Assembly (NCBI GenBank): GCA_025201705.1
Contig: MU616582.1
Location: forward strand, 18,739 to 82,738
DNA from: Dissophora ornata
Lineage: Eukaryota > Mortierellomycota > Mortierellomycetes > Mortierellales > Mortierellaceae
Length of the DNA stretch: 64,000 nt
Reading direction: 5' to 3'
This document shows positions 3,475 to 38,600 of this stretch, in pieces. A program made the position numbers and the translations under genes. Position 1 is the stretch's first letter. Each line of letters starts with the position of its first letter. Below the pieces are notes generated by a model. The model worked only from the letters and a program-made list of their open reading frames with translations, was not told the DNA's origin and made no database searches.

Positions 3475-3794
3475 AGTGAGTGGTTAAAACAGGATCATAA
3501 CAGGCGCACGCGTACCACAAGTTTCATTGATGCATAAATATCAAACAGAGGGGCCAATGACGCCTTCCCGGCACATGCCATAGGAAGCCCTAAGAAGACC
3601 ATCGCTGTTGCGGTCACTTCCCGGTCGGCAAACCAGAAGTCCGAAAGGACTCGTTAAATCTGCTAGAGCTAAAGAAGTGCGAAAGGATTGTTGAACGCAC
3701 CTGAAAGGGGGACTGGGGCTAGGAACGAGAGCTTGATTCTGGTCCATGGAATTCTGTAATATATACGATTTACTAGACAATCTAAACGTCGAAT

Positions 3795-3803
3795 TCCAAC
3801 CAT
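3795..3803. repeat. Left target-site duplication TCCAACCAT (9 bp)
   Basis: The 9-mer TCCAACCAT directly precedes the left terminal inverted repeat. It recurs exactly at 11136-11144 directly after the right terminal repeat. Nine bases is the usual length for Mutator-like elements. Confidence 0.93.
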
Positions 3804-3830
3804 GAAAACAGCACAATTTCGGCTCAAATT
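3804..3830 (+). repeat. Left terminal inverted repeat
   Basis: Positions 3806-3830 are the exact reverse complement of 11110-11134 (25 of 25 bases). The outermost bases are GAAAAC on the left and GAAAC, reverse complement, on the right. The termini thus differ by one A in an A-run. Similarity ends abruptly inward. Confidence 0.95.
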
Positions 3831-3933
3831 CGCTGATTGGTCCAAATTTCCTTCTTTCGCCGAACGCCACCAACCCATAAATGGAAAGTCAATCGACTCA
3901 TTTGATCTTGCTGGTCTTTCTAAAAAAAATTGT

Positions 3934-6633
3934 TTATTGACACCTGCGCCCAGCTCCAGCTACATCAACCTGTACGTCTCGCACAGCATTCTTCAGCCCC
4001 ACCACCGCGCTTTGGAAGTACTGCAATGTGCATCGTCTTTTTTTGCCATTCCTCACAACATCAATCAGTGCCTTACAAGCAACCAACATCTCGCGCTCGC
4101 ATTCCTGAAAAGCCTCAGCAATTTCCTCCTCTCTCGCTCTTTTTTGTGCTTCTTGGTGTTCAGCTCTCGTTGCCTGCAGCTGGAGCACCAAATGCGGCGA
4201 AAGAGTGCTTTCAATGGGAGGCCCGAAATCTTGATCGATGCCAATCGCTTCCTGGGGTTCTTGTGGCTCTTGGGGCAGTACAGGATCGCCGCCATATTTA
4301 ATTTCCAGGTCAATGTAGACCCTTGGTACCAAATACATATGCTTGCATGGCAACTTGTGTTGGACGTAATCCTCGCACGAACAAGAACGAAGAAGGACCC
4401 TATTCATGTCCACAGAAACAGAGTACTCCGTGCCCGGTTGGGTAAACGACTTCACCAAAAACTATGGTGATGAAAAGCTATTAGAGCGATATTCATATTG
4501 TGTATGGTAGTCAAAGATACTATCCGCAAATGGGCTCGCACCTTTCTTTCATCCATCCTCTCTGTGATCATGTTTCTTGCTGTGTCGAAATCCAACGCCA
4601 TCGCCTTCGCTCTTCTCTTCCTGTCATATTCCGAGAGTTGTAGAGGTTGTAGTCCCTGTCTAATCTTGTAGTAGATGACTCTGAAGTCTGTGTTGGTGAC
4701 TCCTTGCAGAAGGTAAATTAGGAAATCTGCACGCACATTGCGTTCACTCCCCAGATGGTGCTTCTTCAGAGTCTTGTGCCAGCTCTCTATGAGATTGTTG
4801 GTGTCGACATGCTGGTAGTCCTGTTAGATAGTGATATTATAACAGATAAAGAGTTATTAATATGAGTGAGCGGGATTGCTTTTTTTTTTTTTTTTCTTTT
4901 TGAAAGGGGGGTTTTTTTCCAAAGCCTTTATCACCTCACCTGTCTCACAAAGGTAGCCCATTTTGGGATCTTTTCCGCTGTCATCCAGTTCTTCTCGATA
5001 TAGGTGATAACGGAGCAGGCTTGTGGGAATTTGTTCTTGAAGGCATTCCACAAAGTCGTCAATTTCTCCTGAGACGATGCAGCTCGCACCTTATTCAAAT
5101 CAGGTCGCATGGCGTCACCATCTTTCGCCTACAGAGCATAGCAAGCACGTTAATACAAAATCATGTACACTGGTGACATGTTCCTTGACTTCACTTACCG
5201 AACATTTTTTCAACCTCTTCTCCCAATTTTGTCCCACATGGAAAAGGCAGTAGTAGATAGCTGCATTAGGGAACACTTGCTTTAGAGCTTCAGACTCCAC
5301 CACAGAACAATCCACCATGAATTTCGACATCTTAAGCCCACAGTCATTCTTGAGCCAGGTCAACCATATCCTGAGGATGTCGCTGTCATTGAAAAAGTCG
5401 CTTCAGTCAACTGAATGTGTTGCGATGTTGCGATTTCAGCACATAATCACATGCCACCTACGTTGACTCTGAGTTGCAGATCATATACGCAATGGGTATG
5501 CCTTTCTGCACATTCCGATCCTTGACAAGAATCGTGAACAGAAAAGAGGATGTATACGCCTGTACTGTGTCCCCACCTGGCTTCAGGGACTTGACAGTCT
5601 TGTGCGTTGAATCAATGCATGCTATGGTGTCATTGTCTTTCATAATCTGTTAAACAATAGGAATGAATATGGATATTAGAAGACGCGAGGAACTGAAGGA
5701 CGTGTCTTACGCGAAATTTTTACCTTCAACTGAAATGAAGTACTCCAAGCAATCAAAAATCTGTTTGGCGAGTCACCGACACCATTCAGGAACTTTCCCT
5801 TGCCACCATCTTGATGAATCGTTGTAATCCAAAGCTTCACGCTGTCTGTAATGTCGCTAGCCTTTTGGGATACCTTCTTGCGCTGACGATATATAGCTCC
5901 GCGAACATCATTGTAGGTTATAAGCATGCCTGGAGGAGCCGTTTCATCTCGTTCTAGCTATAATATTGAGATCTTAGTCATCATGTCATGGAGAGACTCA
6001 ACCATGTGCAATGATTTTCAATGAAAGACACAATAACACAATAGGTACCGATTGAAGAAGTTCCTCACTTGGCCGCAGCTTTTTTTTTATTCCTTTCCAG
6101 TCAAGGCCTTCTTTGACCTTTGCTTTCATCCATTCGATCTCGTTGGTGCTCAATGGGAGAAGTGCCCTGGTTTTCACCGAGTCGTCATGATTGTGGCGCC
6201 AATGGTACTCCACAATCACTTTGTCGTCGCCCACAGGTTTTTGAATCCTGATGTTCGCGTCGCAACTGGTACCAACAGAGCCACGGCCAATAATTAAGGC
6301 TTTACCGGGACGCTGACGCCTGCATGCAAACTTGAAAGACCAGTCAAATCTACGAGGTTTGCCCCTACCACTAGAGGGTCTCCCATAAACTGGAAGTTCA
6401 TCATCTGGGCCCCTGTTGAACAAGACTTCGCGAGCATTCCGCTCTGGACAAAGTTCCCATTGAAATGCGACTCTTTCTTGACCCCAAAATACTCGAAATT
6501 CATCAGTGGTGAAACAAGCATTAAAGACATCTGGCGAGTCGCGATTCCTTGGGAAAGGATGACGCTCGACAGGTGCAAGAGGGTCAAATTCTGTGGGAGA
6601 TAGAAGCACATCCTTGACTTTCAAAGGGGTCAT
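3934..6633 (-). CDS. Mutator-like (MULE) DDE transposase with SWIM finger, 7 exons
   Basis: Exons at 6633-6049, 5957-5724, 5646-5462, 5400-5199, 5128-4940, 4820-4542 and 4461-3934 join in frame to 733 codons with no internal stop; an upstream in-frame ATG at 6666 would add 11 residues. The N-terminal zinc-binding module has C104, C124, H147 and H149, resembling the WRKY-GCM1/FLYWCH-type DNA-binding domains of MULEs. The DDE core shows D285 (ACIDSTHKT), D365 (FMVDCSVVESEAL), the MULE-typical CLFHVGQNW, and E477 (NNLIESWHK). A SWIM finger follows (C585, C587, C597, H599), then a coiled, charged tail. The protein should bind the terminal repeats and cut and paste the element in the nucleus. It is divergent from the FEN1-Fanzor gene and appears intact. 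Confidence 0.93.
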
Positions 6634-7105
6634 GGTTGATGGGAGACAAGAGAAACAGGGATTCAAAGAAAGGTGTTAATACCCACTTGAGAGGAGCGGG
6701 TGTGCATAATTTCCCTTGCTGGAAAAATTGCGCCATGCTCTGGAAAAATTATGTTCATGTGCACGGTTGCATTTTTTTTTCTTTTTGGTTTTGTGCAACG
6801 TGGGTCAGTATGTGTGCACAGTGCAGCGAATATATCCCATGACCCTGGAGGTCCTTGTTAGTCAAAAAAAATACAACCGTGCACATAAACAAAAAAAAAG
6901 AAAAAGTCCAAAGCGAGAGGAAATAATAGGCACAGACCTCGCAGAAGCATGTTCAAAAAAAAAATCAAGAGTATTTCTTCTTCTTCCCACTCGCCTATTC
7001 CTCGTCTTCACTCCGTCTTTCCCTTCTTCCTCTGCAACATAGTCCACCCATTTCTCCATATCTCCATCTTTACCATCTTCTTCATTTACCTCGCGAGCGT
7101 CAGCA
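6634..7105. promoter_or_regulatory. Divergent promoter region between transposase and FEN1-Fanzor
   Basis: This 472-bp spacer separates the two start codons of the transposon genes and must hold both promoters. It contains T-runs, A-runs and a pyrimidine-rich stretch (about 6969-7095) just upstream of the plus-strand ATG. I see no clear TATA box. Shared use for both genes is an inference from the geometry. Confidence 0.5.
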
Positions 7106-10100
7106 ATGGGCATCGTGGGCCTATGGTCCTTCCTTCAAAAAGTTGGATACGATGCTGCTGTCTGCTCTCAGTTTCCTCAAGTTTCCCAGCCCAACAACTG
7201 CTTTTCAGAGCCTACTCTTCGAGTCGACATTCTATCATCATTTTATCCTTCAATTCGTCATTCCTACACAACTCATCCCTTGCATGACGCTCACGAAGTC
7301 CTCGAACGAGTTATATCGAAGTCTGGAGTCCCAAAGAGCGCAGTTCTTTATCTGGATGGCTTCTCGCCGAATGAGAAACGAGGGACCTGAGAACAGCGTC
7401 GTGCCCATGCTCTAAAGCGTGCTCACGAATGCATTGGTGACCTGGAAGAACGCATGATGGACGAACGTAGAGTACGAAAACGCCACTTCATTAACTTGAA
7501 CAAGCACATCAAGGTGGCCTTCTACTGGTCCACGGACTCTCGCAGAGCTTTTGCTCAATACATGCGCATCATGGGGTGGGATGTCAAAGAATGCCCCACA
7601 GAAGCAGATATAGCGATTGCCCAGGACTCCCGACCCTACGATGTTGTATTGTCTGCCGACAGCGACATGCTTGCCTATGACACCGTAACAACCATTTGGA
7701 GACCCTCTTCAAGAGGCAGATACCTGATATACGACCTTGCAAGTGTGTTGAGGAGTCTTAGCTTCTCCAGGGTACAACTTACCGTACTGTGCATCGTGTC
7801 AAAGAACGACTACACTTCCAACATCGCTTCGCTGGGACCCCACACCAACCACAAGATCGTCAAATTACTAGAAGGAGCAGGTAAATACTTGCACAACACC
7901 AATTATTATTAAGTTTGACACAATTCATTTTCTAATGGACTATTTTTTTTATTTTTTTATTGACCACAGATCCAAGAACTATGATCAAGAAATACTTGGC
8001 CCACGATGAAGTGTTCCGCAAGGATCGAACCATCAACCACTTCGAGACCTCTTTGAGGGTATTCGCACATCGACGAATCTTGAGCATGCGGCAATCCGCG
8101 GCTCCTCGTGAGTCAAAACAAGAACCTGCGACCTATAGGGATGTGCTGGAAAGACTGAGACTTGTTCGCATGCAACTTGACGAGAACAAGAAAAAAAGGT
8201 ACTACAATGGTCTTCCCTCTCTTTTTTTAATTTTTTTTTTCGGACATTAACCAATGCAACTTTCACAGCAATCCTGTTAGTACTGAGTGCCAGATGGAGG
8301 TTCCACCAAAGCCCTTTAATCGTTACGGCACTGTCGATCGTACCCCTGATCAATTGCCTCGTCCTCACGATTCTGGAAGAAAGTACAAGTATCGGAAGCG
8401 CTTCTCATTCAAGACGCGCTCACGACTTAAAGAGCATGAGCCTCCTGATACAATGAAGAAGTACCAATGGAAGCCATGGAAAGTGGTACCTGAGAGTCCC
8501 TCCGCTCACTTCACCAACCCTCCCAAAAACAATAACAATAGCAAGCCGCCAAGAACGCCACGACCAGTGGAGGACATGGACAAAGCTGCTCTGGTCAGAG
8601 CTATGGAATGGGAGCATCCAACGAGGACCCTCAATGTCGGAACTCTCAATGCTAATGTGGTGCGAGGATTGAGCAAGGAGTTTCAGCAGGCCAAGGCAAA
8701 CACGTTATTGCCAAAGATCAAGACCTGCCTCCAACAAGCTGTTCGCCATGCATCACTCACCAAGCGGACCTGCCAGAGAGCTATTGGTCAGTACATTGAG
8801 CACCTTTCAACTACCGACATCGATGCAACAGACAGGATCCTGCTCGACAAGCTCTGTCCCCGCACCTCCAACAATGTGACCGGCAACAACGATTCTGACA
8901 AGCCAGATGAAGAACTCAATGAGCATAACGACAAGATTGACACAAAAAATGAGCAGTTGAGCTTCCTGTTCTCACTTCTCGTGTCCATCTACAACTCCAA
9001 GCCTCCTCCCACTTCAGGAACGGGTTCCCATGTCCTTCGGTTCATTGAGAAAGCCAAGGACTTTTTGCCAACCATGAAAAATGACGGAACGAAGATGCTC
9101 TATCCAGGGTCCTCTATACTGCGATCCACTGCTACACAGCTTTCGGTCGAGTTAAGGAAGCACTACAAGAATGGCTCGAAAGATCTTTGTGAGAAGGTAC
9201 TAATATGAATCTTCAACTGGCGCAATCGTTTTTTCTTCTTCTATAAGTTTGCCAAGGACGGTCTTACAAACATCGGCCATCTTTTCAAAATAGGCCGAGG
9301 CTCTCAAGAAAAAGGGTCTTTTGCCTGCAGATGTAGCGATCAGCATTGACCACGACATTTCAGCAATTGAGAACTTTATTCATCTAAACAAGGTCTGCAT
9401 GAGCCGTCGAAGGTTGGCTCCAATGTCTTCCTTTGAAGACAGCTTCATATCTCTTTCGGAACTAGAGTTGACCAGGCTCTTTTGGCAAGACGAGATCTTG
9501 AAACAACAACTGCAAGACTATGCCAGTCCTGACTTCCCAAACGCTGAGAACATCTCCCAGACAGACGTTGCGTATTGGCTCTCAAAGAAGGAACCGGGAC
9601 ATCTTATCACCAAGCTGGTCACTGACGTTGGAGGCTACCAACCGGAGGAGCGGAAGAGACTCAAGGAGTACAGGGCGAAGACATCTGTGATGCCATTGGA
9701 CAAGATGAAGCAGCACATTAGAACCATTCGTGATGACTCCTTCGAACCCATGTCTTACAAAGAGCGCGACTATGTGGTACGTGGATCGATTCGGACAGAT
9801 GGGTTTCGGCTACAGCTGACTGCATTCAAGCTGAACGAACTTAATGCGGTTAAGTACAGACGACTTCCTGTGGAAAAACTACCTCCTCGCATCACTTCAA
9901 CTCTCGCTGGAACGGACTATTTCTTGACCGAGATTAGGAATATAGTGAAGACAAAGCAGGATGTCTCTGACCTTTGGGGATGTGATCCCGAACGAATCAA
10001 GGTTTTGGGTCTAGATCTTGGACAAGCATTTGTAATAGGAGCGAGCGCCTTGCTGCCTAATAGTGACATAGGAAAGGGGGCAAATGCTGTGGTCAAAGAA

Positions 10101-11014
10101 AAGCCTGAAGAGAAAGTGGCCACCAAGTTTTACAACCTGGCTGTCAAGCAGAAGGCAGTGTATCAGCCCACACTGAAACTTCGACGCTGGATGGAGCAAA
10201 GGAAGGACAATGCAATCTACAATTCAGCATCTATCAGCAGCATCGAGACCAATTTGCCCCACCTTCGCGGCACTGGAGCAAGCATTAAAGAATACGTTAA
10301 CAAGCTCAAAGATGTTGAGGCGCACCTCGACTCCTTCTACAACAGCAACATGGTCCTCAAGAAACACAGATGGAACGCGAGAAAGGCACGAGATGAGGAG
10401 TACTTGCAGATTGCCAACCGTCTCTTCAAGTTAGTCGGAGGATCGATTGGCGCCAAGAGAAAAGACAGTAACAAAGTCGTGATCGGTGTGGGTCTTGGAA
10501 AGTTTTCTACAAAGACCAGACTGTCTTCTCTGCACGAGTCGTTCCAATCGTACTTTGTTCAAAAGGTAAGAGAGCATTTTTGTGTCTTCGCGGCCCCATG
10601 GTCTATTTTTCTAACATCAGGACTAATATCGCTTCCCTACAATTAACTGCCTCTCTCAAGGCTAGATCCCTGGGTTACATTGTCGTAGGTGTGAATGAAT
10701 ATTACACCTCGAAAAAGTGTCCGGTCTGCGAGGATTTTGTTGGTCAGGTCGACCTGCGCCGCCTATATTGTTCGAAGTGCAAGACGTACATTCATTGCGA
10801 TGTCATGGCCGGGCACAACATCTGCAATGCAGTTCAAGGACATCTACGTGACCAACAGAGGCCAGCTTATCTCCAGCCAAAGGATGCGAATGGGGATTAC
10901 CCATGGATGAGCTCTCACATGGTGGGCGGCAGTATTGAGTACGGTGGGGTCAAGCGACAAGCACCGTCTGACTCGATGGACAATCCACGCCTCAAGAGAC
11001 CACACGCAGAGTAG
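7106..11014 (+). CDS. XPG/FEN1-like nuclease fused to Fanzor (TnpB-like RNA-guided nuclease)
   Basis: Exons 7106-7880, 7970-8198, 8269-9196, 9294-10565 and 10661-11014, all with GT..AG introns, join in one frame of 1,186 codons with the stop at 11012-11014. Residues 1-335 resemble FEN1/XPG: they start MGIVGLW and keep acidic ligands D41, D84, E166, D168 (Glu in FEN1), D185, D187 and D235. Residues ~336-885 are basic and helical, as in Fanzor N-terminal halves. RuvC-I is VLGLDLGQAF (D885), RuvC-II probably VNEYYTSKKC (E1081), the zinc finger uses C1088, C1091, C1105 and C1108, and RuvC-III is HCDVMAGHN (D1115). Codon 95 (7388-7390) is an in-frame TGA. If it truly terminates, translation from M117 would lose D41 and D84 but keep Fanzor. 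Expected role: RNA-guided DNA cleavage coupled to 5'-flap processing during transposition. Confidence 0.85.
7388..7390 (+). other. In-frame TGA within the FEN1-like domain
   Basis: The frame reads FSPNEKRGT, then TGA, then EQRRAHALKRAHE, and continues open for 163 more codons. In FEN1 this position lies in the Arg/Lys-rich helix after the second catalytic Asp. A CGA arginine codon mutated by one C-to-T change would explain it. No splice donor and acceptor around the codon removes it in frame. Confidence 0.8.
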
Positions 11015-11109
11015 ACAATATTATATTTTAGACATTTGTGTGTCAGCAAACACATAGTCTTAGTTTAGATGCAGCTAGTTCGTGCTTGGATTTGTCACTT
11101 CTGTGACGT
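11015..11109 (+). ncRNA. Candidate 3' omega-RNA scaffold region of the Fanzor
   Basis: The 95 bases between the Fanzor stop and the right terminal repeat contain two short hairpins. One is TGTGT/ACACA (11037-11041 with 11050-11054). The other is GTCAC-TTCT-GTGAC (94-98 with 103-107 in the 11,0xx/11,1xx numbering, i.e. 11094-11107). In TnpB and Fanzor systems the guide RNA comes from the 3' end of the nuclease gene through the right terminus, so this is where it should lie. No transcript evidence is available and the structure is only inspected by eye. Confidence 0.4.
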
Positions 11110-11135
11110 AATTTGAGCCGAAATTGTGCTGTTTC
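11110..11135 (-). repeat. Right terminal inverted repeat
   Basis: This is the reverse complement of the left end, exact across 25 bases (11110-11134), with the terminal C at 11135 matching the left terminal G. A guide-RNA 3' end and transcription through this end would read into the flanking duplication. Confidence 0.95.
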
Positions 11136-11144
11136 TCCAACCAT
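11136..11144. repeat. Right target-site duplication TCCAACCAT
   Basis: This is an exact copy of 3795-3803, directly abutting the right terminal repeat. Confidence 0.93.
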
Positions 11145-11273
11145 TTCGTCACCGAGGACGAATTAAACGTACCCTCTGTTCAACTTCCCCCTCCGGAGAT
11201 CTCGCAATGACAGGAAAGCGATCGCATTTAATCCAGCCCTCTTTCTCCCTACACATCTATACAACACACGACA

Positions 11274-11367
11274 ATGGCCCTCCTCACAACCGTCGCAGGA
11301 TTCTCCACCTTTGGCTTGGCCGTTCGTGGCGTCGCACTCACCATCCAACGCCGCCCCATCACCACTG
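11274..11367 (+). CDS. First exon of a small, possibly mitochondrial protein; rest lost at assembly gap
   Basis: ATG opens MALLTTVAGFSTFGLAVRG followed by VALTIQRRPITTG. The exon ends ACTG with a GTAAGG donor at 11368. The hydrophobic start with a following basic stretch suggests a small membrane or mitochondrial protein, but I do not recognise it with certainty. Eight bases into the intron the assembly has ten Ns (11376-11385), and the sequence beyond is a Fanzor fragment, so the remaining exons are missing here. The Mutator/Fanzor element inserted 130 bp upstream of this ATG, into its promoter or 5' leader. Confidence 0.5.
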
Positions 11368-11375
11368 GTAAGGAG

Positions 11376-11385
11376 NNNNNNNNNN
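11376..11385. other. Assembly gap (10 N)
   Basis: Ten consecutive Ns mark a scaffold join. The true distance and even the adjacency of the two sides are uncertain, because the right side is a repeat copy. Confidence 0.98.
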
Positions 11386-12120
11386 AACGAATCAAAGTTT
11401 TGGGTCTAGACCTTGGACAAGCATTTGTAATAGGAGCGAGCGCCTTGCTGCCTAATAGTGACATAGGAAAGGGGACAAATGCTGTTGTCAAAGAACGGTC
11501 TGAAGAGAAAGTGGCCACCAGGTTTTACAACCTGGCTGTCAAGCAGAAGGCGGTGTATCAGCCCACACTGAAACTTCGACGCTGGATGGAGCAAAGGAAG
11601 GACAAGGCAATCTACAATTCAGCGTCTATCAGCAGCATCGAGACCAATTTGCCCCACCTTCGCGGTACTGGAGCAAGCATTAAAGAATACGTTGGCAAGC
11701 TCAAAGATGTTGAGGCGCACCTCGACTCCTTCTACAACAGCAACATGGTCCTCAAGAAACACAGATGGAACGCGAGAAAGGCACGAGATGAGGAGTACTT
11801 GCAGATTGCCAATCGTCTCTTCAAGCTAGTCGGAGGATCGATTGGCGCCAAGAGAGAAGACAGCAACAAAGTCGTAATCGGTGTGGGTCTTGGAAAGTTT
11901 TCTACAAAGACCAGACTGTCTTCTCTACACGAGTCGTTCCAATCGTACTTTGTTCAAATAGGCAAGAGAGCATTTTTGTATCTTCGCGGCCCCATGGTCT
12001 ATTTATCTAACTTTAGGACTAATATCGCGTATCTACAATTTACTGCCTCTCTTTAGGCTAGATCCCTGGGCTACATTGTCGTAGGTGTGAATGAATATTA
12101 CACCTCGAAAAAGTGTCCGG
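11386..12120 (+). pseudogene. Truncated second Fanzor copy (RuvC-I to start of zinc finger)
   Basis: This 735-bp stretch is nearly identical to 9991-10722 of the full Fanzor, with scattered substitutions. It begins at RIKVLGLDLGQ, directly after the N gap. It ends abruptly at SKKCP, before the second zinc-finger cysteine. An inserted base and a GT-to-GC change destroy the normal donor after SYFVQ. RuvC-III and most of the zinc finger are absent, so it cannot be an active nuclease. It is either a real degraded copy or a mis-scaffolded piece of another element. Confidence 0.85.
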
Positions 12121-19053: not shown

Positions 19054-20978
19054 ATGACTGACACTACCCACTCCCGCGAAGACCACGTCTACCTCGCCAA
19101 GCTCGCCGAGCAGGCTGAGCGTTATGAAGGTAATTGTTAACGAGAACAGATCTCCTACATATCTCAACGCCACCCTTGCCGCTTCTTACTACGCGCACCC
19201 CCACACGCGCACCAAGCGCGATATAACGAGCCGACAGTCAACTCTATAAGCTATGAGTGTCTTTTGTTGTTCACATCTTATACTGCGGCGTCATGTTCCT
19301 CGACAACGCTCGGGGCGAAGAGCGGGAGTTTGGTTTCAGTCTTACTGTATCGCAGTCTGTTCCTGTATGTTTTCTGCGCTCCTCGAGGCTATTTGCAATG
19401 AAATTGTATAGCTTTTATTCAGGCTTTTGAAAGGAGTGTTGGATGAGTGCTGCAACGGAATGAAAGGGGGTAGCTCCACGATAGGACTTTGGGTCGCGTC
19501 GATGACAAGGCAGCTGCTGCGACTGGGAGATTGGCCTGCGTTAATAGTTTATGTCGTCTCATCTACGACCTGTCAAATGAGCGAGTCTCCACCTCCTGTT
19601 CTTCACCTTCTGTCTACCCTCACGTTCTTTTCATAGTCATTGTCTGTTGCAGCCTCGCGGTCAGCTGTTTCCGTTCCACTGTCCCCTTTCCCCCTCCACT
19701 TTTTCTTTCCGTCAGAGTTCACGTCACATTTTCTTTTTGACTTATCGCATGGAGGAAACCTCACCTGTGTGCGTGTGATTGTGCGTGTGGCGATAGGACG
19801 TGATAGGACACGACATTTTTTTTTTCCTGTCTGTGTTGTCTGTGTGTATGTGATATGTGCTATTGAGTTGTATGCGTGTGTTTGTGTGTGTTTCCATTGG
19901 CTTCTATTCGTTCGTCACAAGGGGGAGGGGCACCTGCAGACACAAGCGAAAAAGCGAACGGGGGAAGCGGAATGAGGCACACGGGAGATAGAGAGCAAAA
20001 GCGAGTTGAGTCGAGCACCTGTGCACTGCTCTAGGGTGGTTAGTGCTGGTGCCCAACGCAGGAACCAAAGGCAGCGAATTAGTCAGTAATCGCAACACAT
20101 TACTCACATCTCGGTTTCTCTGCATGTGGAATCGACCTTCATGTAGAGATGGTCAAGAACATGAAGGAGGTTGCCTTTGCCAACACGGAGCTGTCGGTCG
20201 AGGAGCGCAACCTCCTCTCAGTCGCCTACAAGAACGTCATCGGTGCCCGCCGTGCCTCGTGGCGTATCGTCTCGTCGATTGAGCAGAAGGAGGAGTCCAA
20301 GGGCTCGGATGCCAACGTCGCGATGATCAAGACGTACCGCACCAAGATCGAGGAGGAGCTCGCTGAGATCTGCAACGACATCCTCAATGTCCTGGAGAAG
20401 AACTTGATCCCTGCCGCAGTCCTTGGAGAGTCCAAGGTCTTTTACCACAAGATGATGGGCGACTACCACCGCTACCTCGCCGAGTTTGCTACTGGTGACA
20501 AGCGCAAGGAGGCTGCCGACAAGTCGCTGGAGGCATACAAGGCCGCCAGCGAGGTCGCCATCACGGAGTTGCCCCCCACTCACCCCATCCGCCTCGGATT
20601 GGCCCTCAACTTCTCTGTGTTCTACTATGAGATCTTGAACTCACCCGACCGCGCTTGCCACTTGGCTAAGCAGGCTTTTGATGACGCCATTGCCGAGTTG
20701 GATACCCTGAGCGAGGAGAGCTACAAGGACTCGACGTTGATCATGCAGCTGTTGAGAGACAACTTGACCTTGTGGACCTCTGACATGCAGGAAGGTACAG
20801 TTTCAATTGACTCTGTTTACATTCGTATAACTCTTTGTGTTGTTCGTTGCATTACGGAATCTGACATTATCCTCATTAATCTCCACATAATCAAACAACC
20901 TGGCATGGAAAAAATCTGCCAACAGCCTCTGCAAACCAGCCAGAGTCCACAGAGGGTGCCCGTGAGCCTGAAGCTTAG
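19054..20978 (+). CDS. 14-3-3 protein, 3 exons
   Basis: Exons 19054-19129, 20147-20794 and 20926-20978 encode 258 residues. The start is [20 protein letters not shown]. The family signature for the phosphopeptide groove is present: [18 protein letters not shown], then [20 protein letters not shown], and LWTSDMQE near the end. The short acidic tail ([17 protein letters not shown]) is on its own exon. 14-3-3 dimers bind phosphoserine/threonine motifs in client proteins and control signalling, cell cycle and metabolism in the cytoplasm. The first intron is unusually long for this window (about 1 kb) and interrupts codon 26. Such first introns often carry regulatory sequence, which is an inference here. 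Confidence 0.97.
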
Positions 20979-22915: not shown

Positions 22916-24577
22916 TTACTTGACTGCCACCGTCTGGGCAGTCGTCTTCTCTGGCCTGTTCTGTGTAGGCTTGCGGGCGCTATTAGCGCGTCCGGCGCGG
23001 CTGCTTCCTCCCTGCTGCTGTTGTCCATGTCCATTAGTTGCAGCTGCATTGTGGTGCTGTTGATTAAAAGGGCGACCTCCGTTCTGAGGTCCATTATTGT
23101 TGTTCTGGTTGTTGTTGTTACGGCGGCGCTCCTCTGCCAACACGGTCTCGTTTCCTACGGTCACAACGTTCTGCTTCAATGCCGCATGCATCGCCTCAGG
23201 TGTTGTGAAATCCAAGAATGCACAGTTCTTCTTTTGTGTAAAATCCAAGTGCTTCACCGTTCCAAACGTCGAGAACGCCTCACGCAACTGTAGCAGGGAC
23301 ATTTTCTCCGTCACGTTCTTGATGTAGATCGAGTGGAACTCCTCGCGTGGTCTTGAGCCACCTTGGGGCCTGTTGCCGGTCTGATTCTGGGGCTGGGCCT
23401 GCTGAGGTTGGGTCTGCTGAGGCTGGGTCTGAGGCTTGGGAGCGGCCGGGGCAACGTTCGCGGTCGCAGCTTTGGCAGGCGCAACATGCGATCCCGATGG
23501 GTTCGGGTTGCCGGCTACCAAGTTGGCCCACGTCTTGGGTTTGGGGGGCTGTGTTGGTGCCACTGGAGCTGGGACAGCAGCAGGGGCGGCGGGGGTAGAC
23601 TCAACGGTCTCGGTCTGGGCAACAAGCACCACCGCTGCCTTGATAGGTTCAATGACCTCCTGCTTCTCGATCGGCTCTTCGTCCGCCTTGACCTCCTTCT
23701 TAGTCTCAGCCTTCTTTTCGGTCTTCTTTTCAGCCTTCTTCTCCTCAACCTTCTTCTCCTCGTCTGCGGCAACGGTAGCGACGGGTTTCTCCTCCACAAT
23801 CTCAGAGTTGAGTGTGGTGATCTCTTCCTCAGCAGGCTCAGGTGCACGGATCTCGTCCTCAGCGGCCTCTTCAATGACGAGGACCACAGTCTCTGTATCT
23901 TCGGTGTGCTGCTCTTCATACGTCTCCATGACATCCTCGGTCTCCTCGACATATTCCTCTTCATCCTCCGTGTCGTCCTTGAGATAGCGGAAAATGTCGT
24001 TGAGAACAAAGTAGCCGTTGGGCTGCTCTGCCAAGAAGAATGTCTGCACAAACTTTTGGGCAAGACCACCCCTGTTGGACATCTCTCCAAGTACCTGGAT
24101 CACAATTCCTTCGTTGATAGAGGCCTGGCTGTCGATGTTGCTCACAAGAACCCTGCAGTCTTCAAAGTCAAGCTCAAGGATCTTGGCACGGATGTTCTAC
24201 ATGCACAAAGTCCAAGGGAGTCGAAACATTTAGTTCAGAAGTGGTCAGGAGGGACAGAGCAGTGGTACAGCACATGAAACATGGCACAAGATCGTGCTCA
24301 TAGATCACCGCACAACACACGAGCTGCAACAGACGTCTCCGATATATTGGAACAAGGGAAAAGAGTTCGTCTGCAAGGCGCTTACCGGTAGACCCTTGCA
24401 GGTGTCCACGTCCCCGCCCTGGATGCCATGGCTCATGGCCGACTTTTTGTTGTAGAAGAGGTGGAGGCGCGAAGGGTCCTTGTTGAGGAAAGTGTAGTAC
24501 TCGTGAGCGAACGCCACACCGACCTCGGTGGGGTCCTTGACATCGGGATTGGTAGGGTTGGCAGTGGGTGCGGTCAT
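22916..24577 (-). CDS. G3BP: G3BP-like protein (NTF2 domain plus RRM), 2 exons
   Basis: Exons 24577-24386 and 24196-22916 give 490 residues. Residues ~16-130 form an NTF2-like fold (VGVAFAHEYYTFLNKDPSRL, later LAQKFVQTFFLAEQPNGYFV and LNDIFRYL). A long acidic then Lys/Glu/Pro/Ala-rich middle follows. An RRM sits near residues 355-425 (HSIYIKNVTEKMSLLQLREA; RNP1-like KNCAFLDFTT). The C-terminus is Asn/Gln/Gly-rich with RG dipeptides. This is the layout of G3BP/Bre5 proteins, which recruit a ubiquitin protease and nucleate stress granules by binding RNA. The opposite strand carries long spurious frames caused by the acidic low-complexity region. Confidence 0.93.
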
Positions 24578-35600: not shown

Positions 35601-38600
35601 TCCACGGCAAGGAGGATATAATCGTTTCAAAGGCTGCAATCTCTCGGGGCAGTTTTGAGTAAGCATCCTTAGCGGTTTGAATGCGGTCCTGAAGAGTGGA
35701 AACCCAGACTTGCTGCTCTGCATCGCAGCTCGCACCAAAGTCAACTCGAAATTGGTCATACACGATCCTCCATCCAAAGCGTGTGTAGCCTAGGGCAGCA
35801 GGACAGAGTATAAGCAATAAGATAAAGGCAAAATAAAGTACTGATATTGAGAGACCGTACGTACCATCTAGACGCGTCGTTTCCTGGAGCTCGCAGAGGC
35901 GCAATGGCAACCACAGTCTCGGCTCATACAGACTTGACTTCTTGGCCTTTACAACAATGAGCACCGTTTCAAACAAGAAGCAGCCGTAATACTTCAATCG
36001 GATTGGCATATCGGGGGTAATCACGTACTCTAGCGCCCCGGCTAACACGATTGATCCCAAAGTCCCTGCAAAGGCCTTTGTCAATGGCGCAGGAGCGAGA
36101 CCTTCTTGAACAGCTGGACCGAAATCAAAGTAGCTGTCAGACATCCCCCCAGGACTAGGCCTCGGCCCGTTATTTCCGCAGTAGTGACATCCGGGAGAGG
36201 CTGTGCAATGTTGAAGAGAGTGAATATTGAATTGCCCTGCGTTGTAGTTTCCGCCGTTTGTCGCGTTACCGTCGTTGTTACTGCTACCATTGCCACCAGC
36301 GCTTGAATGCTCCTTGCTCGCTAATGTTGTGGTGATGCCCACCTTTCTGGGAAAACTAGTCTCGGGCAGCTTTTTCAAAAACTGTTCCGTCAACAACTTT
36401 CTCTCCACAACTCTTTGAGTTTCATCCATCTCTCTTGCCTTATCTTTCATAAGGCGGTATGCTTGGTCGATATACTGGTACTCAGGGTCATCCTCGCTGG
36501 TGAGTCGCAGAATCTCCTTTAATAGAAGCGGGTATCGGCAGACACGCTGAATGGGTTTGATAAGGAAGTCCTTCAGATCTGCTCGGGAACTAGGACGTCC
36601 CTGCTGGGCCATGAGTTCTTTGCTCTCACGTTGGAGTAAGGTCATAGTGGCCTGGCCAGCAGATCGGTTGATCTCCTTGACAGTTCTCATACGTAGTTCA
36701 CAGAATGTGCTGTAGAGCGAGTTATCGCGATCCTACATTCAAGAAACAGCTCTAGTAAGTTTAATGCTCGTCTGACAACCCACAGGCCCATTGATACTCT
36801 AGTAAAGAAGAGGCGAGTGCTTACCAGTGCTCTGAAAGATTCAGCCAGGTCCCTGTACACCTTCAGCGGCGCCTGTTGCTCACGATCTAAATCGTCCACT
36901 TTGTTGGCCTCTAGTTTGGAATGGAAATCGCGATGCAAGGCTAACAATCCGCTGACGCATCTCCGCATCTTTGCAAGAATAATTTGTGGGAACCAAGACC
37001 TGGACTCCAAGATCCGCAGATACACCTTTTTGTGGACAAATAAGCGCGCACAGATTAGGCACAAGCAATTAACCCTCAGATATATAATAGCAGCGAACGT
37101 GTGCAAGTATCATCAGACTTACATGTACAAGTATATCTAGATCGTTCACATAGCTCTCTTCAGTCGTCTCCAGCTCCAGAAGCGCATGCGACCGCTTGAC
37201 AAAGCGCTTGATTTCACCTGCATCAATCACTGGGTTCGGATCGATGGTAAATGTTTCTAATGCTGGGCCCAGTCCTGATTCATGCTCAGGAGCAGGCTCA
37301 GCAGCGATCACAGTATTTGATAGCGGGAGGGGGATGTCCGAATTTAAGTCTTCGCGCGGCTCATTTGTTGATACGCCTGTTACATCCCTGCCTTGAGACG
37401 TTTGTTGGATACGTCCCTCATCTGCATGCATCGCTTCTATACGACTTTGATCCTTATCCGATACTTGAATCTGATAATCCACCAGGTCGTCACAAGAAAC
37501 CCTCGCTGTCCGTAGCACTGTCTCGACTTCAATCTCGCTACCATTCTCATCCTGGCCGATATGACCTAGAGCCGAATTACCCGAAATGCGACTAGAAGAC
37601 GGCATTGGCCCAATATTCGTAAGCCCACTGGAGCTGGGAAGAGCATCTGCCGTACGAAAATCATCGTCGCTATAAATTCCTGCCATCCCTCCGCTAATCA
37701 CTACCACCGCCGTCGTCGTCGCCGTCTGTGCTGTGGTCCGAATATCTGGCAACCGGTGACGGACTTTTGCGTCCGGTTTATTAATCCGCCGGTCCTGCAG
37801 ACTCAGAAGCGCTTTTTTTGAAGAGTTGAAACTCAATGAAGGCCGATGATAGGAAATGTAGCCACAGCTCTCGCTCCTCTTCAATCTTTGAGGCCCGTGT
37901 CTCCTGTGGCTACGCTTCTCCGATCCTGACTCATGCTTCCCTCCCACAGTAGTCGCAGTTGTGAGTGGAGTAGCAGGAATGGCTGCCGTCCCATCGTAGT
38001 CGGTGGCGGTGATAGCATTCAGGTCTTTGATGTCGTGTCCTGTAAGCATTCGCGACGACCCTGTCGTTCCCAATCCAGCAACCACGTCCAGACCAGGTGA
38101 GGTGGTCCTAGAAGAAGTGTTGCTGCTGCTGGGCCGCGAGTTCTGAATTAGGTCCGACGGCGACAAAGAATGAACATCAAGAGCCTTTCCAAGAACACGC
38201 GAGTGTGTGGTGTTGTAAGGTAGACTCTGATGGTGGCTGTGCTGATGAAGACGAAGTCTTGTAGGGGTGTGCTTCTCGATAGGACTCTTCCGCATAGGAA
38301 ACCGAAAGGACTCTAATCGTTTGGCTGAAGTCACTACTGCTACTGTACTACTATCAGTTGTGGCAGCGATAGGAGCGATGGAAACAGGTAGAACCGCAGC
38401 AGTGGATGCCGACGGAAAGCCTGAGGTCGAGTTAGAGGTCAAACGCGCGGATACGCTGTTTTGATTAAACTTATCCTCGTTGTCTTTTCCATCGTGGTCA
38501 ATGTGCGGAAACGCGAGAGATGGCGGCGATGAAGAGTCATTTTTTTTCTGCGCTAGTGCAATCAATTCCTCGCCATTTTCATCCGAACCATCAGTCACAG

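Follow-up and report, generated by a model that had tools for sequence, protein, structure and literature searches.

The 64,000-nt stretch of Dissophora ornata DNA analyzed here (contig MU616582.1, positions 18,739 to 82,738, referred to as the window) contains a Mutator-type element at window positions 3804–11135. The sequence comparisons support the reading that this one bordered element of 7332 bp holds both a Mutator-like element (MULE) transposase gene and a gene in which a Rad2/FEN1-family nuclease is fused to Fanzor, and that this pairing recurs in diverged copies in the same genome. The two genes are arranged head-to-head.

Borders of the element and its transposase

The element lies between two exact 9-bp target-site duplications (TSDs), TCCAACCAT, at positions 3795–3803 and 11136–11144, both read directly. 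The left terminal inverted repeat (TIR) is 27 nt (GAAAACAGCAC..., positions 3804–3830, plus strand) and the right TIR is 26 nt (GAAACAGCAC..., positions 11110–11135, minus strand). They share a perfect 25-bp inverted-repeat core at 3806–3830 and 11110–11134, and the termini, when read out to the TSDs, differ by one base. An earlier note on this DNA, made from the letters alone, had proposed the 25-bp perfect repeat, the 9-bp duplication and these coordinates, and direct reading confirms all three. By our own arithmetic, an exact 9-bp match at a given position has a chance of about 4e-6. The same note had suggested a search for further copies with identical terminal repeats. A 23-base core of the repeat is found at only two sites in the 31.4-Mb genome with up to three mismatches allowed, i.e., the two ends of the window element itself; a control pattern has no site. 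The exact repeats, the TSD and the genome-wide core search rule out a chance origin of the TIRs or TSD. The element and its TSDs are contiguous, with zero N inside.

The transposase gene is on the minus strand at positions 3934–6633. It is modeled with seven exons (6633–6049, 5957–5724, 5646–5462, 5400–5199, 5128–4940, 4820–4521 and 4461–3934) and has an open frame of 740 aa. Residues D285, D365 and E477, which we take to be catalytic, are present, and E477 is within the motif TNNLIES. A SWIM zinc finger is matched on a single exon with an E value of 3.5e-7, and a MULE domain, also on a single exon, with an E value of 1.4e-4, which is below the Pfam cut-off. The model agrees with the earlier description of this gene as a MULE transposase with these three residues, a SWIM finger and an open spliced frame. 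The intron at 5461–5401 is modeled with an AAG acceptor, and the exon borders are therefore models; AAG acceptors occur in one modeled intron of each gene (5401 in the transposase, 10660 in the fused gene). Four transposase relatives are listed. One is P0031 from Linnemannia elongata (724 aa, 46% identity over 99%); the other three cover 46–71%, and one of these has no organism given. Judged by its TIRs, its 9-bp TSD and a predicted DDE transposase with the E in a TNNLIES-type motif, the element is a member of the Mutator group.

The two divergent genes are 472 bp apart (positions 6634–7105). This interval has a 31-nt inverted repeat (6749–6779 and 6864–6894, 90%), which is possibly a promoter feature shared by both genes.

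The nuclease-Fanzor fusion

The fused gene is on the plus strand at positions 7106–11014 and has 1185 codons in five exons (7106–7880, 7970–8198, 8269–9196, 9294–10565 and 10661–11014, the last with an AAG acceptor). It consists of a nuclease, a middle region and a Fanzor core with a C4 zinc ribbon. The catalytic core of the 5' nuclease is placed in the exon at 7106–7880 (plus strand) by a Pfam XPG_I match to part of it (E 1.3e-5, above the Pfam cut-off) and by the homologous domain of other copies. The Fanzor core, at 9294–11014 on the same strand, has the RuvC-I D in LGLDLGQ, the E in VNEYYTS and the C4 zinc ribbon, and gives a Cas12f1-like_TNB match with an E value of 5.6e-12, above the Pfam cut-off. 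At RuvC-III the D is kept (plus strand codon 10799–10801), although the RD of the motif reads CD in the window copy, i.e., HCD in place of HRD.

The divergent FEN1-Fanzor gene of the earlier note is real as a single fused gene, but an in-frame TGA at 7388–7390 (plus strand, codon 95) had been overlooked, as had the CD in place of RD. This codon falls between positions aligned by eye to D78 and E163 of P0001, a homologue described below. It is inside the 5' nuclease domain and therefore does not mark an intron edge. The window copy does not have an intact reading frame of a Rad2-family nuclease, and its fused gene is probably defective, unless the TGA is a sequencing error.

The fused protein, read through with an X at the stop codon, was used as the query in a homologue search, and 30 public relatives were found. 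All of their named genera are presumably Mortierellaceae. P0001, from Mortierella sp. GBAus27b, is naturally uninterrupted, is 1186 aa long and has 56% identity over 99%. By our own coverage cut, 13/30 extend over the nuclease as well as the Fanzor region, and the others are partial or one-sided; at E 0.01, XPG_I is matched in 9/30 and Cas12f1-like_TNB in 15/30. With a profile of nine sequences, a further search yielded 12 proteins, whose genera are likewise presumably Mortierellaceae. Because the search depends on common short words and comparable length, it may have missed fusions that are more distant. Among these 12 proteins is P0042 from Dissophora ornata, three exons of which match contig C429 at 100% identity; on that contig the source gene model is a single gene in which the nuclease exon is spliced to the middle region. 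Homologues in several species rule out a one-off fusion, and the predicted nuclease-Fanzor fusion is conserved across Mortierellaceae genera.

Residues of both domains are conserved as well. The nuclease residues D78, K85, R92, E163, D165, D182, D184 and D232 are invariant in nine homologues, and the first Asp (D35) is present in the six homologues that have an annotated N-terminus; these acidic and arch residues are presumably equivalent to those in the FEN1 numbering. On the Fanzor side, D877, T1066-S1067, C1070/C1073/C1087/C1090 and R1096-D1097 are invariant in the same number of homologues. The published Fanzor motif, D-X(125,275)-[TS][TS]-X-X-C4 zinc finger-X(5,50)-RD (PMC3627910), is present, with the spacing counted in P0001 only.

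The homologous nuclease domain of other copies displays the Rad2/XPG/FEN1 superfamily fold over about 250 residues. RAD2, FEN1, XPG and EXO1 all match it; RAD2 is best by sequence and EXO1 is nominally best by fold, and structural alignments with 5' nucleases have 13–20% identity. As predicted from sequence and modeled structure, the domain is a Rad2/XPG-superfamily 5' nuclease that is not assignable to FEN1 specifically. The FEN1 label of the earlier note holds at the level of the superfamily but not for FEN1 itself. One scan of viral contigs gave no relatives. A more distant Rad2-like domain with a long open frame is found at positions 22968–24035 of contig C134 (locus L058) and is 26% identical to the domain of C298. 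No Fanzor match on this contig is among the listed genome-search matches, and L058 could be a free-standing relative of the nuclease domain.

Copies, end types and the structured right end

The genome search scores the best candidates only, and copy counts are therefore lower bounds. There are at least 116 Fanzor matches (72 merged loci), at least 41 nuclease matches (38 merged loci) and at least 28 matches to the transposase N-terminus (24 merged loci). A same-strand Fanzor match is downstream of the nuclease at 13/38 loci. A head-to-head transposase match is upstream at 7/38, compared with about 0.04 expected by our own arithmetic. With a transposase profile, and with remnants included, head-to-head loci rise to 11 (C21, which is the window, C661, C429, C791, C425, C160, C13, C20, C454, C18 and C509). 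C661 has matches to nearly the full length of both proteins at 30–59% identity; its TIRs were not found, and the contig ends about 160 bp past the transposase match.

Other copies have only a part of the element. C799 has an internal deletion that joins transposase to Fanzor (94–95% DNA identity). C275, with 91.9% identity over positions 3869–6784, has the transposase only, and no related TIR was seen there. C237 (33109 to 37783) has nuclease and Fanzor, with no transposase match inside; one end of each type forms its borders, with a small deletion in the right-type end, and its flanks are a 9-bp duplication with one mismatch (8/9). In C497 a left TIR is directly ahead of the fusion, with no transposase between. 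The two genes are not always together, since C237 is fusion-only and C275 is transposase-only. The earlier note had held that copies with repeats around only one of the genes would speak against a two-gene element. C237 is such a copy and in part bears this out; no related TIR was seen at C275, and the pairing recurs head-to-head in diverged copies. In this the copies resemble the autonomous and non-autonomous members of a transposon family.

The ratio of nonsynonymous to synonymous substitution rates (dN/dS) of the window copy is 0.31 against the C275 transposase (733 codons), 0.34 against the C799 Fanzor (430 codons) and 0.20 against an adjacent Fanzor fragment (190 codons). We read these values as a sign that transposase and fused gene were both kept functional until recently. 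The Fanzor fragment (11386–12119) is outside the element. Its first 300 bases are 96% identical to positions 9991–10290, and a 10-N gap at 11376–11385, about 230 bp beyond the element, joins it to a host-like gene start (11274 on). It may represent a second insertion, or else the scaffold is misjoined here. Farther along the window, at 20083–53990, 5/10 long frames scanned match ordinary fungal families (14-3-3, NTF2/RRM, F-box-like, RhoGEF and Vac14).

Other copies have a related terminal repeat, AGGACAATGGGCGCGAAAATT or similar, and inside it ACGTCACCGAAGTG at the Fanzor side (right-type) and CGCTGATTGG at the other side (left-type). Subterminal motifs of the same kind are at both ends of the window element: CGCTGATTGG at 3831–3840 matches the left-type motif, and ACGTCACAGAAGTGAC (reverse complement), which flanks the right TIR, resembles the right-type motif. 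With the patterns used and up to three mismatches, 77 ends of the right type and 20 of the left type are found in the genome, and controls have 0. Eight short elements, each with one right-type and one left-type end (C60, C242, C465, C256, C85, C106, C210 and C120), span only 0.5–0.9 kb and are too small for either gene. C465 has an exact 9-bp TSD, CAGCACACG, found by eye; no matching 9-bp flanks were seen by eye in the other seven. The left TIR on C120 was considered as a border of the C120 Fanzor copy and rejected, as it pairs with a right-type end in the short element at 36003–36820.

The right-end region, at positions 11015–11135 on the plus strand, adjoins the Fanzor stop codon and is a putative guide-RNA scaffold. 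It has a hairpin at 11039–11054 and a long hairpin through 11094–11107. The fold of 11015–11134 has a z score of -4.12, and in it the right TIR is paired with the subterminal strand, with a small loop between them. In the same test, the z scores of five other right ends are -6.08, -2.36, -1.72, -3.21 and -1.95. For the terminal 100 nt, the median z is -3.31 in 25 right ends vs -0.52 in 14 left ends (p 0.0012, with related ends treated as independent). For eight representative right ends, the pairing of the repeat arm is better with the subterminal strand of the same end than with that of another end, and 200/40320 permutations do as well. A 70-nt stretch with z ≤ -4.1 is found in 7/18 Fanzor 3' flanks vs 1/36 control segments, where some of the 18 flanks are ends also used in the permutation test. 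No Rfam family reaches its gathering threshold in 3700–11300. The structural data are suggestive of an omega RNA, i.e., a guide-RNA scaffold, at the right end.

Proposed mechanism and comparison with known systems

We lean towards the view that the element represents a two-gene Mutator-type DNA transposon of Mortierellaceae that works by "cut, paste and re-copy". The transposase would cut the element out and paste it elsewhere by DDE cut-and-paste. An RNA transcribed from the 3' end of the fused gene, across the right TIR and into the flank, would be loaded onto the fused protein, and the guide, being from the flank, would match the insertion site. The Fanzor part would then cut the empty donor site, or an empty sister or allelic site, the Rad2-like domain would trim 5' ends or flaps after this cut, and repair would copy the element back from the occupied homologue. 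Copies with ends of this kind that hold the fusion only, or are short, would be mobilized in trans. The combination put forward in the earlier note, DDE movement with RNA-guided cleavage and flap repair, is plausible on these data. The role of the Rad2 domain is the least certain step, for which RNA maturation is a rival. A stronger proposal, made tentatively, is that this DDE transposon carries an RNA-guided break and end-resection machine in one polypeptide, in which Fanzor would cut the empty site by its guide, the EXO1/FEN1-like part would prepare the ends and repair would then restore or multiply the element.

Several observations weigh against the proposed mechanism. The fused gene of the window copy is interrupted by an in-frame stop. 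In the 21 Fanzor loci that have upstream sequence, with the rearranged C58 and C349 left out, the nuclease core is present in 13 and missing in 8, and two of the eight (C824 and C549) keep only the last part of the nuclease; the nuclease is therefore dispensable for, or lost in, some copies. Changed residues are found in some of the 21 homologues outside the invariant nine (for example, P0006 has N at 182, P0008 has Y in the zinc ribbon and P0027 has Q at 92). The co-divergence of the two genes (Mantel) rests on one close pair, r being reduced from 0.70 to 0.35 and 0.24. As for the right end, RNAalifold gives no supported consensus for 17 rows (16 distinct loci, since C450 was entered twice under two lengths), with eight pairs and none with double changes. 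Covariation of two short hairpins is weak, with shuffles as high in 16/500, 135/500, 252/500 and 45/500 (different measures, C450 again twice). The z score is above -1.2 in 8/25 right ends, and for several ends, pairing with the strand of the same end is no better than pairing with that of another.

The Fanzor-Rad2 gene may be a passenger that cuts and homes to, or defends, its own site and uses any MULE transposase, in which case the association is loose. This is rather doubtful. It would account for the fusion-only C237, which has an end of each type and a 9-bp duplication, and for C497, where the left TIR directly precedes the fusion, and it agrees with the loss of significance of the co-divergence once one close pair is removed and with the Mutator-type Fanzor elements of 2013, which have no transposase in the available part of the source (PMC3627910). 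The eleven head-to-head loci in one fixed orientation argue against a passenger, as does purifying selection of similar strength on the two genes within one subfamily. A different role for the Rad2-like domain, where it matures the guide RNA or resolves R-loops and the target is cut by the Fanzor part only, is less probable still. The right end is structured and has its TIR within a stem, so processing may be needed, and Rad2-family 5' nucleases act on structured branch points, but the near relatives of the family, judged by profile and fold, act on DNA.

The right-end hairpins could also be subterminal repeats that bind the transposase and not guide RNA, which we hold to be about as doubtful as a passenger gene. 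The TIR forms part of a hairpin, the numerous right-type and left-type ends have conserved subterminal motifs and a supported consensus RNA fold was not obtained, all of which would speak for such sites; however, the Fanzor-side right ends fold more strongly than the left ends, and the stem strands partly vary in step. An annotation or assembly artefact, with either two neighboring genes mistaken for one fused gene or a contig that is chimeric, is largely refuted and highly improbable. The 10-N gap with a Fanzor fragment just outside the element and the unusual AAG splice acceptors would fit an artefact, but the stretch from TSD to TSD is unbroken and the fusion is annotated in several species and spliced in the C429 gene model of the same genome.

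If the stronger proposal above, of an RNA-guided break and end-resection machine in one polypeptide, is true, no earlier RNA-guided nuclease is known to us that has a repair nuclease built in, and this one would have been kept across a fungal family. A natural fusion with a nuclease that processes 5' ends also offers a lead in the search for enzymes for genome engineering. Transposase, Fanzor and a putative guide-RNA end lie together between one pair of borders, and the same genome has diverged relatives with both genes, with the fusion only or with neither gene; "RNA-guided cut and re-copy" therefore becomes a hypothesis that a soil fungus can be used to test. The element bears on the question of why Fanzors are retained in eukaryotic transposons, where Spu-1 and the 2013 cases have no transposase in the available parts of PMC10432273 and PMC3627910.

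In the literature searched, Fanzor was not found together with XPG or with Mortierella; co-mentions of Fanzor with FEN1, with Mutator and with MULE do occur. The words FEN, XPG and flap are missing from the main text of PMC3627910. The earlier note had taken Fanzor genes in eukaryotic transposons as known and a fully bordered Mutator element with a Fanzor that also carries a flap nuclease as apparently new. Fanzor in Mutator elements with TIRs and 9-bp TSDs is already described, as far as the available part of that paper extends (PMC3627910), while the co-encoded transposase and the fused nuclease are new within the literature searched.

The Dissophora element shares with maize MuDR and other MULEs a DDE transposase with SWIM, TIRs as boundaries and a 9-bp TSD; we know of no Fanzor in those elements. 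The nuclease domain is like FEN1, EXO1, XPG/Rad2 and GEN1 in its fold over about 250 residues and its acidic active site, but here it is the N-terminal part of a transposon protein. The TnpB systems of IS200/IS605 and IS607 have, to our knowledge, no 5' nuclease fusion. They are similar in that an RNA-guided nuclease is in a transposon and the guide is from the flank, although the guide here is putative. These systems are prokaryotic and have transposases of unrelated kinds (HUH or serine), according to the available part of PMC10711439. Fanzor1 has been linked to hAT, Mariner, Crypton and Helitron transposases in the accessible parts of PMC10432273 and PMC10711439. The Mucorales MuDr-type elements ROr-4, PBl-3 and MCi-4 are similar in organization, with Fanzor1 inside MuDr-like TIRs and 9-bp TSDs in early-diverging fungi, but encode no MuDR transposase as far as the available text states (Bao and Jurka 2013, PMC3627910); the Dissophora element encodes its own transposase and a fused nuclease. 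In Spizellomyces, Spu-1 encodes a Fanzor1 (SpuFz1) that has an RNA from the right end, and "ghost" elements retain the ends but not the gene (Saito 2023, PMC10432273, available part), which is similar to the short gene-less copies found here. The Spu-1 locus is about 2.1 kb with a single open reading frame, and in the part of that source available it has no transposase between the repeats and no Rad2 domain is mentioned, whereas the Dissophora element holds both a transposase and a Rad2-family domain.

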